Below are positions 44,839 through 64,000 of a DNA stretch of 64,000 nt, in pieces; within the stretch, counting starts at the first letter, position 1, and each line of letters opens with the position of its first letter. Under the pieces are notes generated by a model. It had not been told where the DNA came from, did not search any database, and saw only the letters and a list, made by a program, of their open reading frames with translations. This DNA comes from Micromonospora sp. NBC_01740 (lineage in GTDB: Bacteria; Actinomycetota; Actinomycetes; Mycobacteriales; Micromonosporaceae). A program made the translations under genes and the position numbers. The stretch covers positions 7,068,001-7,132,000 of the forward strand of contig NZ_CP109150.1 in assembly GCF_035920365.1 (NCBI RefSeq). The letters are read 5' to 3'.

Positions 44839-45471
44839 CTAGAGGCCGAGGTAGGCGGCGATGCCGTTGGCATGCCCTCGGGCGGTGGCGGTGATGAAGG
44901 CGGCGCGCTTGAGCAGGTTCGCGTCGGCCACGGTGTCGATGAACAGGTTCTCGGTCAGGACGGCGGGCATGGCGGTCTCGCGCAGCACATGGAAGTTGGC
45001 GGTCTTCAGGCCGCGGTCGGTGACCGAGCCGACGGTGCGCATGCCCGACAGGACCCGGGAGTGCACCGGACTGTGCAGGGCGCTGGAGGTGCCCGGGTAC
45101 CGGTAGCTCTCGAAACCCGTACCGCCGCCGGAGTTGATGTGGATGCTGACGAAGATCGTGGCGCCCCACGCGTTGGCGTCGCTCGTACGGTACGTGAGAC
45201 TGCGGGTGATGTCCGAGGTGCGGGACATCCGTACGTCGACGCTGTAATTGGCCTTGAGGATGTCGCGGGTCTGAAGCGCGATGCTCAGGGTCAGGGCCTT
45301 CTCGGTCAGGCCGTTGCCGACGGCGCCGGGGTCGGTGCCGCCATGCCCGGGGTCGAGGTAGACCTTCGGGACCGCCGCGTGCGCAACGCCGGTCGCCGCC
45401 CACGGAGCCACGACGAAACCAGCGGCGGCAGCCAGCAGGGTGCGGCGGCGCGCTGAGGAGTTACTGATCAC
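44839..45471 (-). CDS. Secreted N-acetylmuramoyl-L-alanine amidase (Amidase_3)
   Basis: A 210-residue cell-wall hydrolase that cuts the bond between muramic acid and the peptide stem. The N-terminus SARRRTLLAAAA with AHA cleavage resembles a Tat signal. The zinc site is seen in DPGHGG, the catalytic Glu in LTENLFID, and HINS near the middle. GGAGAGG precedes GTG 45471. It has no binding repeats. Confidence 0.88.
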   Translation of the reverse strand: MISNSSARRRTLLAAAAGFVVAPWAATGVAHAAVPKVYLDPGHGGTDPGAVGNGLTEKALTLSIALQTRDILKANYSVDVRMSRTSDITRSLTYRTSDANAWGATIFVSIHINSGGGTGFESYRYPGTSSALHSPVHSRVLSGMRTVGSVTDRGLKTANFHVLRETAMPAVLTENLFIDTVADANLLKRAAFITATARGHANGIAAYLGL

Positions 45472-45623
45472 GAGCACCTCTCCACGGAAAGTAGGGGGTG
45501 CCGGGAGGCCGTCGTAGGCCGCCTGTACCCGTACGGGCTGGCACGGCGTCACTGTAATGCATGGAAATACGTAGATGGAAAGACCCGCTGCTCGAAGACG
45601 TCCAACGGGGTCGAGCGGGCCGG

Positions 45624-56995: not shown

Positions 56996-59900
56996 CTATC
57001 GGACGGCCGGCGCGTCCGGCAGGTGACTGCGCTCCGGCCGGAATTGTGCCGAAGCTGCCCTGGCGACGACCTCCTCCGGGCTGAGCGGCGCCTTCGGGTG
57101 GTGGGACAGGCAGATCGGCGTGTCCACCTTGACGAACGCGAAGCCCTCCCCGGCCACGTAGAACTGGCCGCTCTGCATGAGGCCGATGTCGGGCAGCCGC
57201 CCGCCCTTGGCCTCCGCCAACTGACGGGCCGCGTCGATCTGCGCGGGAGCGTTGAGCAGCCCGAAGAACTGCGTGGTGGCGTTGCCGGAGATCTGGTTGT
57301 GCAGCCCCTTCGGCGCCTGGGTGGCGAAGACCAACCCGAGCCCGTACTTGCGGGCCTGAGAGGCGAGGGCGATCGTGCTGGCCGTGCAGGCCGTCTGCCC
57401 GGACGACGGGGCGAGAGTCTGCGCCTCGTCCATCACGAAGAGCCCGCCCAGCGGTCGCTCGCCCGCCGGGTGCCGCTTGATCCAGGCGAACAGGGCCATC
57501 TGGAGCTGATTGACGAAGCCCTGCCGTTCCTGGTCCGACGTGAGCCCCACAAAGCTGATCACCGAAATGCGTGCGCGCCGGCCCGGCGAGGGGGTGAGCA
57601 GCAGGCCCGGATCGGCCGGGGCGCCGACGCCGCCGAACAACGGATCGGTGACCATGGCGGCCTTCAGAGTCTCGGCCAGATCCTGGGCCAGCTTGTCCGC
57701 CCGGCTCAGCCGGCTCACCCCGTCGGGCAGTTCGGCGAGGAACTCGGTGAAGCCGGGCAGGCCCACCATTCCGCTCCTCGCGTACGCCTGGAGGGCCTCG
57801 GTCAGCACGGCCTTGCCCTGCTGGGCCACCTTCGTCGGCCGGTCCACACCGGCGCGCGGGGCGAGTGCCTCCACCGCCGAGCGGATCGCCTGGTCGAACT
57901 CGTCCGGCGAGTCGCGTACGGGGGTGAAGTCCGGCAGCGGCTGGAAGCTCAGCGGTCGACCGGCGTTGACCCGGGGCGTCCAGACCACCACCTCGGTGTG
58001 TTCGAGGTGGTCGCGGGCCCGCTCGGCGTCACCGGGGCCCCATCCGGCCGGCGGCTGCGGCCAGGGATCGCCCAGGCGGGCGAGGTCGTTGTTGGGATCG
58101 AGCACGATCGCGGAGACGCCCTCTCGAGCGCACTCCTCGACCAGCCGCCGGATCAGCACGGTCTTGCCGGAGCCGGAGCCGGCGAAGATCACCGTGTGAC
58201 GGCGCAGCGACTCCAGGTCCACCGCGAACGGCCGCGCCCCGTCGGTGGTCCGCCCCAACAGGATCGAAGTTCCGTCGACGGTGGCCCTCCCGCCGCCGAC
58301 CCGCGCGTCGTCCTCGCCGCCCACCTCGGCGGTCGGCCCGACTGACCGGGCGACCGGTCCGGCCTCCGCATTGGCCGCCCCGGCGGAGTCGCCGAGGATC
58401 GTGGCGAACAGCTGCGTGGAGCCGGCCGGTCGGCGCGCGACCAGCCACTCCTGGAGAACCGAGGCCGGTTCGCCACTCAGCTCACGAAGCGCGGCGAACA
58501 CCCGCAGGTCCGCCTCCGGGACGCCGCAGCGGACTCCGCCGGCCGCGTCGAAGGCCGCCAACACCTCGGCCGTACGCTTCCCGGTCGGCCACGGGCCGTT
58601 GCGCAACAGCACCAGCCGCCGCTGCGGCAGCGCACGGTCGAGGCCCGCCATGGTGCAGGCCGCCTTCACCCTGGCGGTCGCCGCGATCGCGTTCGGATGG
58701 GAGATCCCGCGGAAGCACCAGTGCGCCTCGTTCTCGGTGGCCTCGTCCAGCACCTCGATCAGCCGCCCGTGCAGCGCCGGTTTGCGGCCCGGCAGCGGGT
58801 CGTACCTGTAGCTGGCGCCGGTCGGGGACCGCTCGGCGATCCAGGCCGCCAGACCGGCGGCGAGGAGCGCCGGCATGTGCTCGTCCTCGGTCCGCGGATC
58901 GAGCGCACCCGCCACGTCCGCCCCCGCCACCAGCTCGGCGAAGCGGGCGTCGAGCTGCCGCAGGCGCACGTCGTCACCGGTGTCCGTGTCGCGGCACGAC
59001 TTCGGGCCGACGGCGGCACTCCGGTCCGGCGGCTCGGACCCGCCGATGACGTGGTCGACGACCTCGATGAGACGGTCGAGCTCGGTCACCTCGTCCCGGT
59101 CCCGGCACCAGGCGACGTGACGATCCACCCGGCGCAGCAGCGCCCGGGGCGTCAACGCCGGGGCGTCCACGAACGCCTCGGGGCTGATCGGCCAGGTCGG
59201 GTACGGCGGTGCGAAACGCGGCCCGGCGAAGGCGGCGGTGAACCGCTTCGCGACGATGGCCCGCCCGATCTCGGGGGTGGGAATCCGGTCGGGGAGGATC
59301 GCCTGCCGGAACCGGTCGCCGACCGGAGTGGGCGCACTCCTGGTCAACAGCTCCCAGGTGTCCGGCAGGCACGACACCACGATCAGCGTCCGGCGGGTGA
59401 CGTCACGCAGCTTCAGCAGCCCGTCGGCGATGGGCCCGATGACCTTCGCCTGGGCGTCCTCCAGCCCGGCGTACTGGTCGAACATGGCGGTGCTGGTCTG
59501 GGCGAAGAGCGTGTCGAGCTGGTCGACGGCTATCACCGTGGGGTCGAGCGTCAGCGCCATCAGCCGCGAGACGTCCTGGACGATCTGCTGCGGGGTACGG
59601 ATCGCCGGGGTCAGCCCCCACGCCGCGCGACCGTCCGGGTCACCTGGCTCGGAGATCAGATGGGCGTAGCCGACGTCCTGTGCCTCGAAGTCCAGCGCGC
59701 CGTGCAGGACGAGTGCCCGGGCGGTGTCCTGGCAGTCCCGGCCGATCTCGCGATGGCGCGTCCGCAGGGCCCGCACGAAGGTGTCCAGGTGCTCCCGGGT
59801 GACCGGCTTCGTCCCGGCGACCGCGTCGCGTACCTCCGCCGGGATGCCGAGCTGGGCGGTGAGCCGACGCAGGAACGTGCGCAGCTGGGTGCCCCAGCCG

Positions 59901-60250
59901 ATCGCGTCCCGTCCCATGCCTTCGACCAGGGCCAGCGCCACGCTCTCCCAGAACGTCTTCCCGCTGACCATGTCGACCAGGAAGAAGTAGCCGCCCTCAC
60001 GCTGGATCCGATCCCGCACCGCCCCGAGCAGGTGGGTCTTGCCGGCGCCGGCCCGCCCCTGCATGGCCACGCCGAGGGGCACCGTGGTGTCGTCGGTGCG
60101 GGCCCTGCCCACGCCGCGCAGGATCTCCGCGACCACCTTCTCGTGCAGCTCCGGCACGTCGTGCGGGCTGGGCCGCCACACGTCGTCGGGAGTGACCGCA
60201 GGGTTGAGACTGACCGCCTCGAGCGCGGCCCGTACGTCCTCCGGGATCAT
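56996..60250 (-). CDS. Dual-ATPase protein: N-terminal STAND/AAA and C-terminal HerA-like domains
   Basis: A 1084-residue protein. The first P-loop GRAGAGKT is at 65-72, with Walker B VIAVDQ (Asp243) and a sensor VVSCLPDTWEL near 291-302. The second half is HerA/FtsK-like: Walker A GSGSGKT at 691-697, Walker B VMDEAQ (Asp941-Glu942), and a final ATQAPKGL motif. HerA ATPases act as hexameric DNA translocases with nucleases. It is the last gene of a three-gene operon, starting by ATGA overlap with the wHTH gene. The length and pairing suggest a defence or DNA-processing complex; the role is inference. Confidence 0.85.
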   Translation of the reverse strand: MIPEDVRAALEAVSLNPAVTPDDVWRPSPHDVPELHEKVVAEILRGVGRARTDDTTVPLGVAMQGRAGAGKTHLLGAVRDRIQREGGYFFLVDMVSGKTFWESVALALVEGMGRDAIGWGTQLRTFLRRLTAQLGIPAEVRDAVAGTKPVTREHLDTFVRALRTRHREIGRDCQDTARALVLHGALDFEAQDVGYAHLISEPGDPDGRAAWGLTPAIRTPQQIVQDVSRLMALTLDPTVIAVDQLDTLFAQTSTAMFDQYAGLEDAQAKVIGPIADGLLKLRDVTRRTLIVVSCLPDTWELLTRSAPTPVGDRFRQAILPDRIPTPEIGRAIVAKRFTAAFAGPRFAPPYPTWPISPEAFVDAPALTPRALLRRVDRHVAWCRDRDEVTELDRLIEVVDHVIGGSEPPDRSAAVGPKSCRDTDTGDDVRLRQLDARFAELVAGADVAGALDPRTEDEHMPALLAAGLAAWIAERSPTGASYRYDPLPGRKPALHGRLIEVLDEATENEAHWCFRGISHPNAIAATARVKAACTMAGLDRALPQRRLVLLRNGPWPTGKRTAEVLAAFDAAGGVRCGVPEADLRVFAALRELSGEPASVLQEWLVARRPAGSTQLFATILGDSAGAANAEAGPVARSVGPTAEVGGEDDARVGGGRATVDGTSILLGRTTDGARPFAVDLESLRRHTVIFAGSGSGKTVLIRRLVEECAREGVSAIVLDPNNDLARLGDPWPQPPAGWGPGDAERARDHLEHTEVVVWTPRVNAGRPLSFQPLPDFTPVRDSPDEFDQAIRSAVEALAPRAGVDRPTKVAQQGKAVLTEALQAYARSGMVGLPGFTEFLAELPDGVSRLSRADKLAQDLAETLKAAMVTDPLFGGVGAPADPGLLLTPSPGRRARISVISFVGLTSDQERQGFVNQLQMALFAWIKRHPAGERPLGGLFVMDEAQTLAPSSGQTACTASTIALASQARKYGLGLVFATQAPKGLHNQISGNATTQFFGLLNAPAQIDAARQLAEAKGGRLPDIGLMQSGQFYVAGEGFAFVKVDTPICLSHHPKAPLSPEEVVARAASAQFRPERSHLPDAPAVR

Positions 60251-60942
60251 GCCGAGCCGATCGCCAGGGTGTGGTTCTCCTCGTCCCCGATGCGCACCGC
60301 GGCCGCCCGGTCCCGCGCGGTCAACGACTTGGTGTTGGCGACCGGGATGATTCGGACGCCGTCCCGCTGGACCATCGCGCGCAACGTCGCGTCGACGGTA
60401 GCGCGGTCCTGCCTGCCGAGGCGTTCGCGCAGGTCGGCGAGCCCCACCCAGGCTCCCGGCTCCCGGGCCAGCTCGTGATAGGCGGCGCGGATCAGGGCCT
60501 CCACGGCGTCCGGCTCGGTGGCCGCCGGCGCTGGCGCGGCGCCGGGAGGCGTCGGGCCGGCCGCCGGACCTGAGGTGGCCGACGGCGGCGTGAAGAAGTC
60601 GGCGTGGCTGAGCCCCAACCGGCTCAGCGAGCGGTGCAGGTTGGCCAGCAGGGTGAAGAGCGAACGGGTGGCTGAGCCACTACGTGCGGGCGGGGCGCCG
60701 ACGTGCAGCTGCCGCACCACCCGCCACCCCTCGTCGGTCAGCTCGTGGGAGAAGGGCCGGTGGGACCGGTCGGTCTCGACCAGGCCGAGCTTGACGAGTT
60801 TGGCGTTGTCGACGCCGGTGAGGCTGAACCCGGCCAACTCCTTCAGCTCGTTGTTGGTCAGTTCGCGGGCCTCGACCATGAGCACCACAAGCGCGTTGAT
60901 CTGGTTGGGCGTCAGGTGGGGAAGGTCCGCCGTGCTCGTCAT
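60247..60942 (-). CDS. Winged-helix protein of the ATPase-nuclease operon
   Basis: A 231-residue protein with two possible winged helices: residues 8-70 (LTPNQINALVVLMVEARELTNNELKELAG in outline, then LVKLGLVETDRSH) and 150-225 (LADLRERLGRQDRATVDATLRAMVQ). An Ala/Pro linker at about 115-145 joins them. It may bind DNA as a regulator or as a subunit of the complex. It overlaps both neighbours by 4 nt. Confidence 0.8.
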   Translation of the reverse strand: MTSTADLPHLTPNQINALVVLMVEARELTNNELKELAGFSLTGVDNAKLVKLGLVETDRSHRPFSHELTDEGWRVVRQLHVGAPPARSGSATRSLFTLLANLHRSLSRLGLSHADFFTPPSATSGPAAGPTPPGAAPAPAATEPDAVEALIRAAYHELAREPGAWVGLADLRERLGRQDRATVDATLRAMVQRDGVRIIPVANTKSLTARDRAAAVRIGDEENHTLAIGSA

Positions 60943-62024
60943 GGTGCCTCTTCTTCGTGGGGGTGCGCGCCGGCCAGGCGACGACGGGTCAGCAGTTGCC
61001 GGATCATGCCGACCACGGCCTGGACGTCGGACAGCACCTGCTCGTTGGTGAACCGGAGCACGTCCAGCCCGAGGAGTTGCAGCCGCACGTCACGCCGCCG
61101 GTCGTTGGCGAATCTGATTCGTCCCCGATGTTCCGGGCCGTCCACCTCGACCGCAAGTCCCTCGGCCGGCCAGAAGAGGTCCAGGCGGTAGGTCTCGCCG
61201 AGCAGGTGCCAGTCGTACGTGTGGTTCCAGCGCCTCCCCCGGGCCCACTCGTGTGGCGTCAGTGCCAGCTCCAGTGCCTGCTCGGCGGCGCTGTCGCCGC
61301 GTGGGACACCGGACAGCGGCGGAAACGTCAGTGCCGGCGGAGGCTCGCGGACGGTGTCGGGAACCCGACCCGCCTGCACCGCCAACTCGGTCAGGCTCGA
61401 CGGCAGCGAAACCTGAACCGACCGGATCCGGTCGACCGTCCGCAGTTCCCGCCCGGCCAGCCAGACGGTGAGGCGGCCGTGCCGCACCAGCCATTCGGCG
61501 ACGGCGACCAACGCGCGCTCGGTCTCCGTGGGCAGCTCGTCGGTCAGGCCGACCAGCAGGACGCACCCGTCACGGTCGTACGCGGAGGCCATGACCCGGG
61601 CCAGGCCGGCAGCCCGTACCTCTGCCGGAAAGCGCGGCCGGTGCTGCCGGTCCTCTCCGCGCAGCGCGCGCTCGGCGAGGTCGGCCAGGAACGGGCCGAA
61701 GTGCTCGGAGTGCGCAGCGGCCCGCATGGCAAGGGACCGCACCGCAGCGACGCCCAGCGTGCCGGAACCGTCGAGCCGTTCGGCACCGGGCAACCAGCGG
61801 GGGAACAGCGTGAGGGCTGCGCCGTCCAACTCGTCGAGGACGGCGGCGAGCAACTCGGTGAAGCCCCGTCGGGCCGGCACGCGGTACCGAACGACGACCG
61901 GGGCGGCGGCCGGTGCCGGATCGAGTCCCACATGGAGCAACTCGGCGTCGATGCCGGGCAGGTGGCTGACCTGCTGCGGAGGAAGGGCCTCCCACCACTC
62001 GGCGGGAGGTACGCCACTGGCCAC
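60939..62024 (-). CDS. DUF559/Vsr-type PD-(D/E)XK nuclease
   Basis: About 361 residues. The C-terminal 110 residues carry a nuclease core: RLDLFWPAEGLAVEVDGPEH (catalytic Asp and Glu-x-Asp) followed by FANDRRRDVRLQLLGLDVLRFTNEQV, as in DUF559. The N-terminal 240 residues form an alpha/beta region I do not recognise (VLLVGLTDELPTETERALVAV). GTG 62024 is chosen since upstream frame content to 62228 lacks protein character; a TAACGT may be a -10 for a leaderless start. First gene of the operon. Confidence 0.78.
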   Translation of the reverse strand: MASGVPPAEWWEALPPQQVSHLPGIDAELLHVGLDPAPAAAPVVVRYRVPARRGFTELLAAVLDELDGAALTLFPRWLPGAERLDGSGTLGVAAVRSLAMRAAAHSEHFGPFLADLAERALRGEDRQHRPRFPAEVRAAGLARVMASAYDRDGCVLLVGLTDELPTETERALVAVAEWLVRHGRLTVWLAGRELRTVDRIRSVQVSLPSSLTELAVQAGRVPDTVREPPPALTFPPLSGVPRGDSAAEQALELALTPHEWARGRRWNHTYDWHLLGETYRLDLFWPAEGLAVEVDGPEHRGRIRFANDRRRDVRLQLLGLDVLRFTNEQVLSDVQAVVGMIRQLLTRRRLAGAHPHEEEAP

Positions 62025-62212
62025 GGCCGAGCACGTTACCGAGGATCGATCGAGCGCGCCGCCCGCCCGATCCGCTGGCCCGTGCCTGCACCGCTGTGAC
62101 CGGGTACGGCCATCCGGCTGCGGCTGTCCAGCCCTTCTGCCGGTGTCGGGGGCGGCGGCGGGCCCGGAGTCGGCCGTACAGTGTGCCGACCGTTCTAACG
62201 AGGAGGGGTTCC

Positions 62213-64000
62213 TTGACCCAGCCACCACCGGTGTCGGGCCCCCCGGGTTCCGGCGAGGCGCCCGGCAGCACCGCCGGTGACGACCCCGGAAACGCGCCGC
62301 CGCACCTGCTCGTCATGCCGTCCATCGAGGGCGCGCCGCCCCCGATGGTGTGGCCCGGGGCGGAGGGCGCACCCGCCTGGGCGATCCCCGTCAGCATCCC
62401 GCCCGGGACGCGCGGTTACGCCGTGTTCATCCCGCTGGTGCCAACCACCGCCGCGGCGGCTCCGGTCGCCGCGGGCCCGCCGGCCCCGGCCTCGGTCGTC
62501 CCCGCCCCCAGGCCGGCCGAGGCGACCGCCGCGCCAGCCCCGACGGCCGTCGTCGAGCCGGGAGAGAGCATCCCGACGCGGACCGCCGCGGTGACGGCGG
62601 CGGACTCCGCGGCACCGGCTGCCGCGCCGTCACCGGACGCCGTCGGCGCGCCGCCGCGCGGCACCGACGCGGCACCTACCGCCTCCGCCCCCGCTACGCC
62701 CACCACGAGCGGACCCGCCGAGGCGGCGCCCAGCACGAAGGGACCCGCCGCCGAAGCGGCGCCCAGCACCGGGACGCCCGCGACCGCCGCGCCGGCCACC
62801 GGTGGTGCGCCGGCCGCCCCGTCGGCGGGCACCGGCGCATCCGCTGCCCGCCCGCCGGCGACCAACGTCCAACAGCCCGCCGCCGCGCCGCTGCCGGCGC
62901 CGTACCGGATCGGAGTGCCGTCCGGCGCGCCGGCGCCGTACCGCGGCTACCAGCCGGTCCCGCGCCCGCCGTCGTTCCTCGACACGCGCTGGCCGGGGCC
63001 GGCGCCCACCCAGGACCGGGCCGTACCGCTCGCGGTCCTCGCCGGAGCGCTGGGCCTGGCCTTCTTCGTACCGCTCACCCGCACCGGCATCGGCTGGTTC
63101 CTCGGCTGGCTCGCCCTGACCGTCGCGGTGGTCCTCGCGGTCCGGCGGACGGGCGCGGAACTGCCGCGCGCCGACCGGCGGATCCGCGCCGGCTGGGCGG
63201 TGGCGGCCCTGGCGCTGCTGTCGGTCCTGGCCTTCCGCAACGCCTGGTGGCTGGTGACGTTCTGCGTGCTCGGCGCGCTCTGCTGCGCGACCCTCGCGAT
63301 CGTGGGCGGCCGGCTCGTCCGCTCCATCCTGTTCAGCCTGGTGGCGGCCCCCTTCGCGGCGTTGCGAGGGCTGCCGTGGGTGCGTGGGCACCTGCACGCC
63401 CCGGTGAACCCGCATCTGGCCCGCCGGGTCGTCGGGTCGGCCGCGGCCACCGTGGCCGCGCTGATCGTCTTCGGCGCGCTCCTGTCCTCGGCCGACGGCG
63501 CCTTCTCCGTGATGCTCGGCGAGCTGGTTCCCGAGGTCAACGGCGGCGCGACGTTCCGCTGGATCCTCCTCGCCGCCGTGGGCGGGCTCTGCGCCGTCGC
63601 CGCCCTCTACACGCTGGCCGCGCCGCCCGACCTGTCGACGATGGACCGGCCCGGCACGCGCCGCTTCGGCCTCGTGGAGTGGGCGCCGGTCATCAGCGCC
63701 CTGACGCTGCTCTTCGGCGGCTTCGTGGCGGTGCAGTTCACCGTCCTGTTCGGTGGGCAGCGGCACGTGCTGCGCACCGCCGGCCTCAGCTACGCGGAGT
63801 ACGCGCGCAGCGGGTTCTGGCAGCTCGTCGTCGTCACCATGCTGACGCTGGCGGTGCTCGGCGGGGTGGCCCGCTGGGCGCGACGGGACCGGGCCGTCGA
63901 GCGCCACCTGCTGCGGGTCCTGCTGGGCCTGCTCAGCGTGCTCAGCTTCGTCATCGTGGGGTCGGCGCTGTCCCGGATGTACACGTACCAGAAGGCGTAC
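62213..64000 (+). CDS. DUF4173/DUF4153 membrane protein (partial)
   Basis: 596 codons visible, open at the right edge. Residues 1-255 are disordered and rich in Pro, Ala and Thr. From residue 260 many membrane helices follow, and segments RHVLRTAGLSYAEYARSGFW and SALSRMYTYQKAY match DUF4173. The function is unknown. It starts with TTG 62213 after a strong AGGAGGGG at 62201-62208. TACAGT at 62177-62182 is a likely -10. It is divergent from the nuclease operon. Confidence 0.85.
   Translation, partial: MTQPPPVSGPPGSGEAPGSTAGDDPGNAPPHLLVMPSIEGAPPPMVWPGAEGAPAWAIPVSIPPGTRGYAVFIPLVPTTAAAAPVAAGPPAPASVVPAPRPAEATAAPAPTAVVEPGESIPTRTAAVTAADSAAPAAAPSPDAVGAPPRGTDAAPTASAPATPTTSGPAEAAPSTKGPAAEAAPSTGTPATAAPATGGAPAAPSAGTGASAARPPATNVQQPAAAPLPAPYRIGVPSGAPAPYRGYQPVPRPPSFLDTRWPGPAPTQDRAVPLAVLAGALGLAFFVPLTRTGIGWFLGWLALTVAVVLAVRRTGAELPRADRRIRAGWAVAALALLSVLAFRNAWWLVTFCVLGALCCATLAIVGGRLVRSILFSLVAAPFAALRGLPWVRGHLHAPVNPHLARRVVGSAAATVAALIVFGALLSSADGAFSVMLGELVPEVNGGATFRWILLAAVGGLCAVAALYTLAAPPDLSTMDRPGTRRFGLVEWAPVISALTLLFGGFVAVQFTVLFGGQRHVLRTAGLSYAEYARSGFWQLVVVTMLTLAVLGGVARWARRDRAVERHLLRVLLGLLSVLSFVIVGSALSRMYTYQKAY

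Follow-up and report, generated by a model that had tools for sequence, protein, structure and literature searches.

In a 64,000-nucleotide stretch of the genome of Micromonospora sp. NBC_01740 (the window), we analysed a leftward three-gene operon that encodes a dual ATPase, a winged-helix protein and a nuclease. Comparison with its relatives shows a constant core, predicted to consist of the winged-helix protein and a fused Orc/Cdc6–HerA/FtsK ATPase with both motors intact, and a third component that is exchangeable. On our best reading, the operon represents an actinobacterial branch within the HerA/FtsK capture systems, which are themselves predicted. We infer a role in defence, the operon probably being an accessory cassette against invading phage or plasmid DNA in which a shared sensor/pump is combined with an exchangeable third component. 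The operon is real and far beyond chance, because the ATPase has 1193 related proteins at an expectation value (E) <= 1e-3 (the best 120 being listed), 80 full-length relatives in named loci, and the motifs are invariant. The exchange of partners around the core was missed by an earlier annotation made from the letters of this DNA (the sequence-only reading).

Results

The winged-helix gene adjoins the ATPase gene in all 80 named loci, which are the best 80 of 325 confirmed relatives and all full-length. The third slot is variable. It holds a relative of the nuclease in 45 of the 80 loci (truncated at the start in L101), a trypsin-STAND-WD40 gene with divergent transcription in nine, seven of which also have a Trypco1-like gene, a DUF4365 nuclease with PDC-M02B in four (the families were tested on L081 and the rest assigned by clustering), and an unknown protein of 624–731 amino acids (aa) in three. 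Single loci carry a pPIWI_RE protein upstream and an AIPR/AbiU protein directly downstream of the ATPase gene (L106), AIPR/AbiU alone in the latter position (L100), or TIR with a ParA-like/CATASP protein (PDC-M28B; L110), and three loci end at a contig edge. For a second sample, 20 loci were hand-picked from other families covered by the search of the order, with TIR and ParA searched by tblastn using the L110 proteins; here TIR plus ParA-like genes were found in 11, the nuclease in three and AbiU downstream in one (L160). The TIR and ParA-like genes, of the PDC-M28B type, precede the winged-helix and ATPase pair (L147, L148, L150–L157, L159).

The partner appears to be part of the unit because it is swapped at one site and moves with the pair. 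L042 and L047 occupy a common site, with flanks that match at 92.4% (2775 bp) and 88.6% (2783 bp), where L042 has the trypsin-STAND gene plus the pair and L047 the nuclease plus the pair. In L039, two genes flank a block that has the stop codon of the trypsin-STAND gene at one end and extends slightly beyond the ATPase stop at the other; in L048 these two genes are direct neighbours and the block is found at another place. Near-identical internal DNA repeats occur in the WD40-coding part of the trypsin-STAND gene in both loci (L039 4733–5178 and L048 13967–14628, stretches up to 94%), which suggests recent repeat shuffling of a sensor surface.

The third-slot genes could instead be independent defence genes beside a two-gene winged-helix and ATPase unit, with no functional complex between them. 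The partners have no common fold, the trypsin-STAND partner is divergently transcribed, and no partner was recognised in 13 of the 80 named loci and five of the 20 further ones. We nevertheless consider this explanation unlikely, given the ATGA overlaps in the nuclease type found in the window, the presence or absence of the whole three-gene block as a unit, the movement of the trypsin-STAND gene with the pair as one block (L039/L048) and the co-divergence of the components (r 0.91).

The loci without a recognised partner also weigh against an exchangeable defence cassette, as do several further observations. Partners are largely stable within clades: when the labels of the nine partner groups, contig-edge rows included, are placed on a FastTree tree of 81 ATPases, they require 12 changes against a shuffled mean of 33.6, and nine changes when those rows are left out. 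Six mycobacterial loci (L102, L108, L113, L118, L121, L123) consist of the pair without a recognised partner and follow the same FAD-reductase (or DUF72) genes, which suggests that the mycobacterial pair is a fixed resident two-gene form. The identities of ATPase, nuclease and winged-helix protein correlate over 44 loci (r 0.91–0.93), and these correlations may reflect common inheritance only. Finally, the sequence-only reading had looked to other defence genes nearby, and the 10 neighbours scanned include no clear one, a single generic oxidoreductase match being all that was returned.

Both P-loops that had been read from the ATPase sequence are intact (GRAGAGKT at residues 65–72, GSGSGKT at 691–697). 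The HerA-like translocase was likewise confirmed by a Pfam DUF87/HerA match (E 4.2e-10, residues 665–797) and by the HerA fold of this half in the predicted structure. The N-terminal ATPase, described earlier as a STAND/AAA module, is best matched by Orc/Cdc6/TnsC-type AAA+ proteins and not by a classical STAND sensor, and fold comparison of the predicted structure shows a resemblance to TnsC; a NACHT/STAND label was set aside, the Pfam matches being generic and some below the cut-off. For the middle of the protein (about residues 455–592), secondary-structure prediction gives a-b-b-b-a-b-a-b, compatible with a restriction endonuclease (REase).

The 231-aa protein is a putative fast-evolving winged helix-turn-helix (wHTH) component, its mean pairwise identity being 0.42 compared with 0.56 for the ATPase. 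The fold assignment comes from a weak, sub-threshold Pfam match to HTH_27 in the first half (E 0.0032), with MarR_2 at E 0.1; the count of two winged helices goes back to a pattern in the sequence. Calmodulin matches of its alignment (best E 4e-4) were taken as spurious, though they were the best among the matches listed.

For the third protein, the earlier identification as a DUF559-like nuclease is borne out by a Pfam match (E 1.7e-9, residues 346–413 of the long open reading frame (ORF)), and both the fold and the conserved acidic catalytic residues of a DUF559/Vsr-like PD-(D/E)XK nuclease are present. Its N-terminus, previously unrecognised, resembles RdrA, CED-4, MuB, TnsC and ORC when its predicted structure is compared with VIA-align, and the modelled domain thus resembles a degenerate AAA+/STAND-like fold without Walker A. 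Initial Foldseek matches of the nuclease (HslU, ABC ATPases) were weak and were set aside in favour of this comparison.

The operon is accessory and the cassette is movable. Among 61 genomes, the full-length ATPase is present in 20, namely 19 of the 37 of the genus (the host included) and one of the 24 others, and seven further genomes have only short matches to the HerA part. These 20 genomes also have the winged-helix gene, for which G037 adds one weak match containing stops, and 15 of them have a full-size nuclease. At the level of the order, the ATPase occurs in 32 of 200 genomes and 12 of 60 genera (E <= 1e-100). The 20 loci represent 13 contexts when a match of both flanks is demanded and eight when any one shared flank is enough to link them. 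Three genomes (G161, G179, G221) have two ATPase copies at different places, some of which have differing partners or none that was recognised. In G025, 174 bp stand in place of the cassette-bearing stretch (Table 1) between flanks of about 85–95% DNA identity, and on the left the homology breaks off at most about ten bases from the ATPase stop codon. The cassette is missing from G004 and G027 too, which keep the sequence to the same left point and resume further right; G035 keeps the left side only, and G033 and G022 are without either immediate flank. In G017 (L030 vs L136), the cassette is close to the same neighbours as its counterpart in the window but lies across the DUF4153 region from that position, as though it had moved locally. 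Because presence is patchy, the genomic sites are many and the catalytic residues of the nuclease are conserved, the operon departs from the two outcomes that the sequence-only reading had named first against its own proposal, a single syntenic place in nearly all genomes of the order and loss of the nuclease residues.

This distribution also bears on a housekeeping complex for DNA-end processing like archaeal HerA–NurA, which would agree with the HerA fold of the translocase half and with the two-gene form that mycobacteria have at a single shared site. Such a role is hardly likely at all for an ATPase that occurs in just 32 of 200 genomes of the order, is missing from about half of the genus and precisely absent from the close relative G025, and exchanges its partners.

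Very unlikely, too, is machinery for the transposition or DNA transfer of a mobile element (TnsA-like nuclease, TnsC/MuB-like AAA+, FtsK-like pump) in place of defence, an explanation that draws on the likeness of the AAA+ module to TnsC, on the structural relatives of the nuclease N-domain and on insertion at many sites. ORF and Pfam analysis of the cassette reveals no transposase or recombinase, its ends show no terminal repeat beyond those of shuffled sequences (the longest direct repeat has 6 bases and the longest inverted one 7, where shuffles average 7.6 and 7.4), and the TIR, trypsin-STAND and pPIWI partners fit effectors. No match was found among 50,697 phage records at E <= 1e-20, and the sole convincing plasmid is one of 224 kb from Tsukamurella, where the relative covers 98% of the query. 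In a Methylobacterium plasmid the match is confined to the translocase part, and an 11.9-Mb Nonomuraea "plasmid" with a match is presumably a chromosome.

The three leftward ORFs overlap by ATGA at both junctions, as reported earlier, and their codon-position G+C has the pattern of genes. The longest nuclease ORF spans 60939–62228 on the minus strand (at most 429 aa). The nuclease probably starts near 62024 (361 aa), as the sequence-only reading had it, because 367-aa frames in five close homologues start at the equivalent place and four of the longer matches cross an in-frame TAG upstream. The host genome is a single contig of 7.3 Mb, and its closest named matches are from Micromonospora.

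Table 1. Coordinates of the operon and of the surrounding insertion/deletion unit in the window.
Feature	Position	Strand	Description
Dual ATPase, 1084 aa	56996..60250	-	Orc/Cdc6-type AAA+ ~1-385, putative REase-like middle ~455-592, HerA/FtsK translocase ~660-1066
Winged-helix protein, 231 aa	60247..60942	-	Obligate partner of the ATPase
Nuclease, 361 aa	60939..62024	-	Resembles degenerate AAA+/STAND-like N-domain ~8-207; DUF559 PD-(D/E)XK-type C-domain ~243-350
Stretch absent in relative G025	57006..62147		Cassette as insertion/deletion unit

Around the operon, Pfam comparison of 10 proteins (eight from the window, two from immediately beyond it) identified a DUF4153 protein, an acyl-CoA dehydrogenase, a luciferase-like monooxygenase and unassigned proteins. 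The phage-tail-like neighbours proposed earlier were not recovered: no tail family was found among the 10 neighbours compared with PHROGs or the 10 proteins compared with Pfam, which cover part of the genes of the window, and a phage origin or phage-tail neighbourhood was rejected on this basis. PHROGs matches among the 10 neighbours included one endolysin-like and one cold-shock protein. The endolysin-like protein (44839–45552; PHROG 435, E 3e-46), seen with no other phage context, is probably a host lysozyme.

Discussion

The architecture is less novel than the sequence-only reading claimed when it called it distinct. HerA/FtsK capture systems were predicted from comparative genomics, and the combination of Orc/CDC6, HerA/FtsK, wHTH and nuclease was already predicted as a class in the passages of that paper that treat them (PMC10853773). 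As described there, the domains are spread over one or several polypeptides, a degenerate or inactive REase-like domain is reported between the AAA+ core and the wHTH, the active REase is of one of two named families, one of them common with AbiJ, and the wHTH protein is fast-evolving (PMC10853773). The operon has in common with this class the Orc/CDC6 AAA+, HerA/FtsK, wHTH and nuclease components. It differs in that its nuclease is a DUF559 protein (a word absent from the main text of PMC10853773) with a degenerate AAA+/STAND-like front, and in that its third slot is swapped for TIR with ParA-like, trypsin-STAND-WD40, DUF4365 with PDC-M02B, or pPIWI/AbiU. Related Orc/CDC6 proteins fused to TIR or STAND, but not in a HerA context, do appear in those passages (PMC10853773), and Trypco1 was defined in other conflict systems (PMC7159879). 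BREX-related capture (BRC) systems, in the sections that present them (PMC12839542), also have Orc/Cdc6 AAA+, a STAND-like domain, wHTH and HerA/FtsK, but the operon has no PglZ, BrxC, GNAT or TGT match. Measured against these portions of the two papers, what appears to be new is the exchange of the third component, together with a DUF559 nuclease whose N-terminal part is a putative degenerate AAA+/STAND-like domain.

Other HerA-containing systems are more distant. The likeness to Mad8 of MADS lies in the translocase half only (PADLOC mads_8, E 9.2e-23, residues 664–1041). The other mad genes of MADS include a methyltransferase, and no other mad model matched the two partner proteins or the 10 neighbours. 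DndFGH/DptFGH consists of DndF, DndG and a full DndH with a C-terminal HerA; these companions differ from those of the operon, and no Dnd model matched the three operon proteins at E <= 1. Membership of MADS or Dnd was rejected, since only the translocase half matches. SIR2-HerA and DUF4297-HerA couple a HerA motor to an effector enzyme, as in the operon, whose motor is instead fused to an AAA+ module and accompanied by a winged-helix subunit and DUF559 in place of SIR2 or DUF4297. Literature searches of open-licence PubMed Central (PMC) papers found none on the cassette, nothing useful on Mad8, no occurrence of the term PDC-M02 and none on TIR/ParA with HerA.

We propose that the AAA+ module and the winged-helix protein would recognise foreign DNA and load onto it, that the HerA/FtsK domains would form a hexameric ring pumping the duplex, and that the nuclease, docked on the AAA+ ring via its degenerate AAA+-like domain, would cut the DNA delivered. 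This pump-and-cut step follows the capture proposal in the parts of both papers that set it out (PMC10853773, PMC12839542). In relatives, the same sensor/pump would be wired to TIR plus ParA-like, trypsin-STAND-WD40, DUF4365 nuclease or pPIWI/AbiU outputs; because the same core occurs with these other outputs, the core would act as a shared trigger, with a plug-in effector in the third slot. The authors of the capture systems propose, in the passages concerned, interception during segregation, conjugation or packaging (PMC10853773), which would favour surveillance of transfer against plasmids and conjugation only and not phages. We give this narrower role little chance, although the present data do not separate plasmid-only from phage action.

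An anti-invader cassette may, more tentatively, be one form of a widespread actinobacterial immune platform, a reading to which we give somewhat less than even weight, in which a single foreign-DNA sensor/pump serves effectors that are either DNA-degrading nucleases or TIR, protease-STAND and Argonaute-like modules acting on the cell or its signals. If this is true, the pump would be the trigger as well as the restriction engine. Functions would then follow for DUF559 fusions and for the PADLOC candidates PDC-M02 and PDC-M28, which lie directly beside the same core. The compact three-gene examples and the natural partner swaps at one site make it testable whether one DNA-sensing motor serves different immune outputs.
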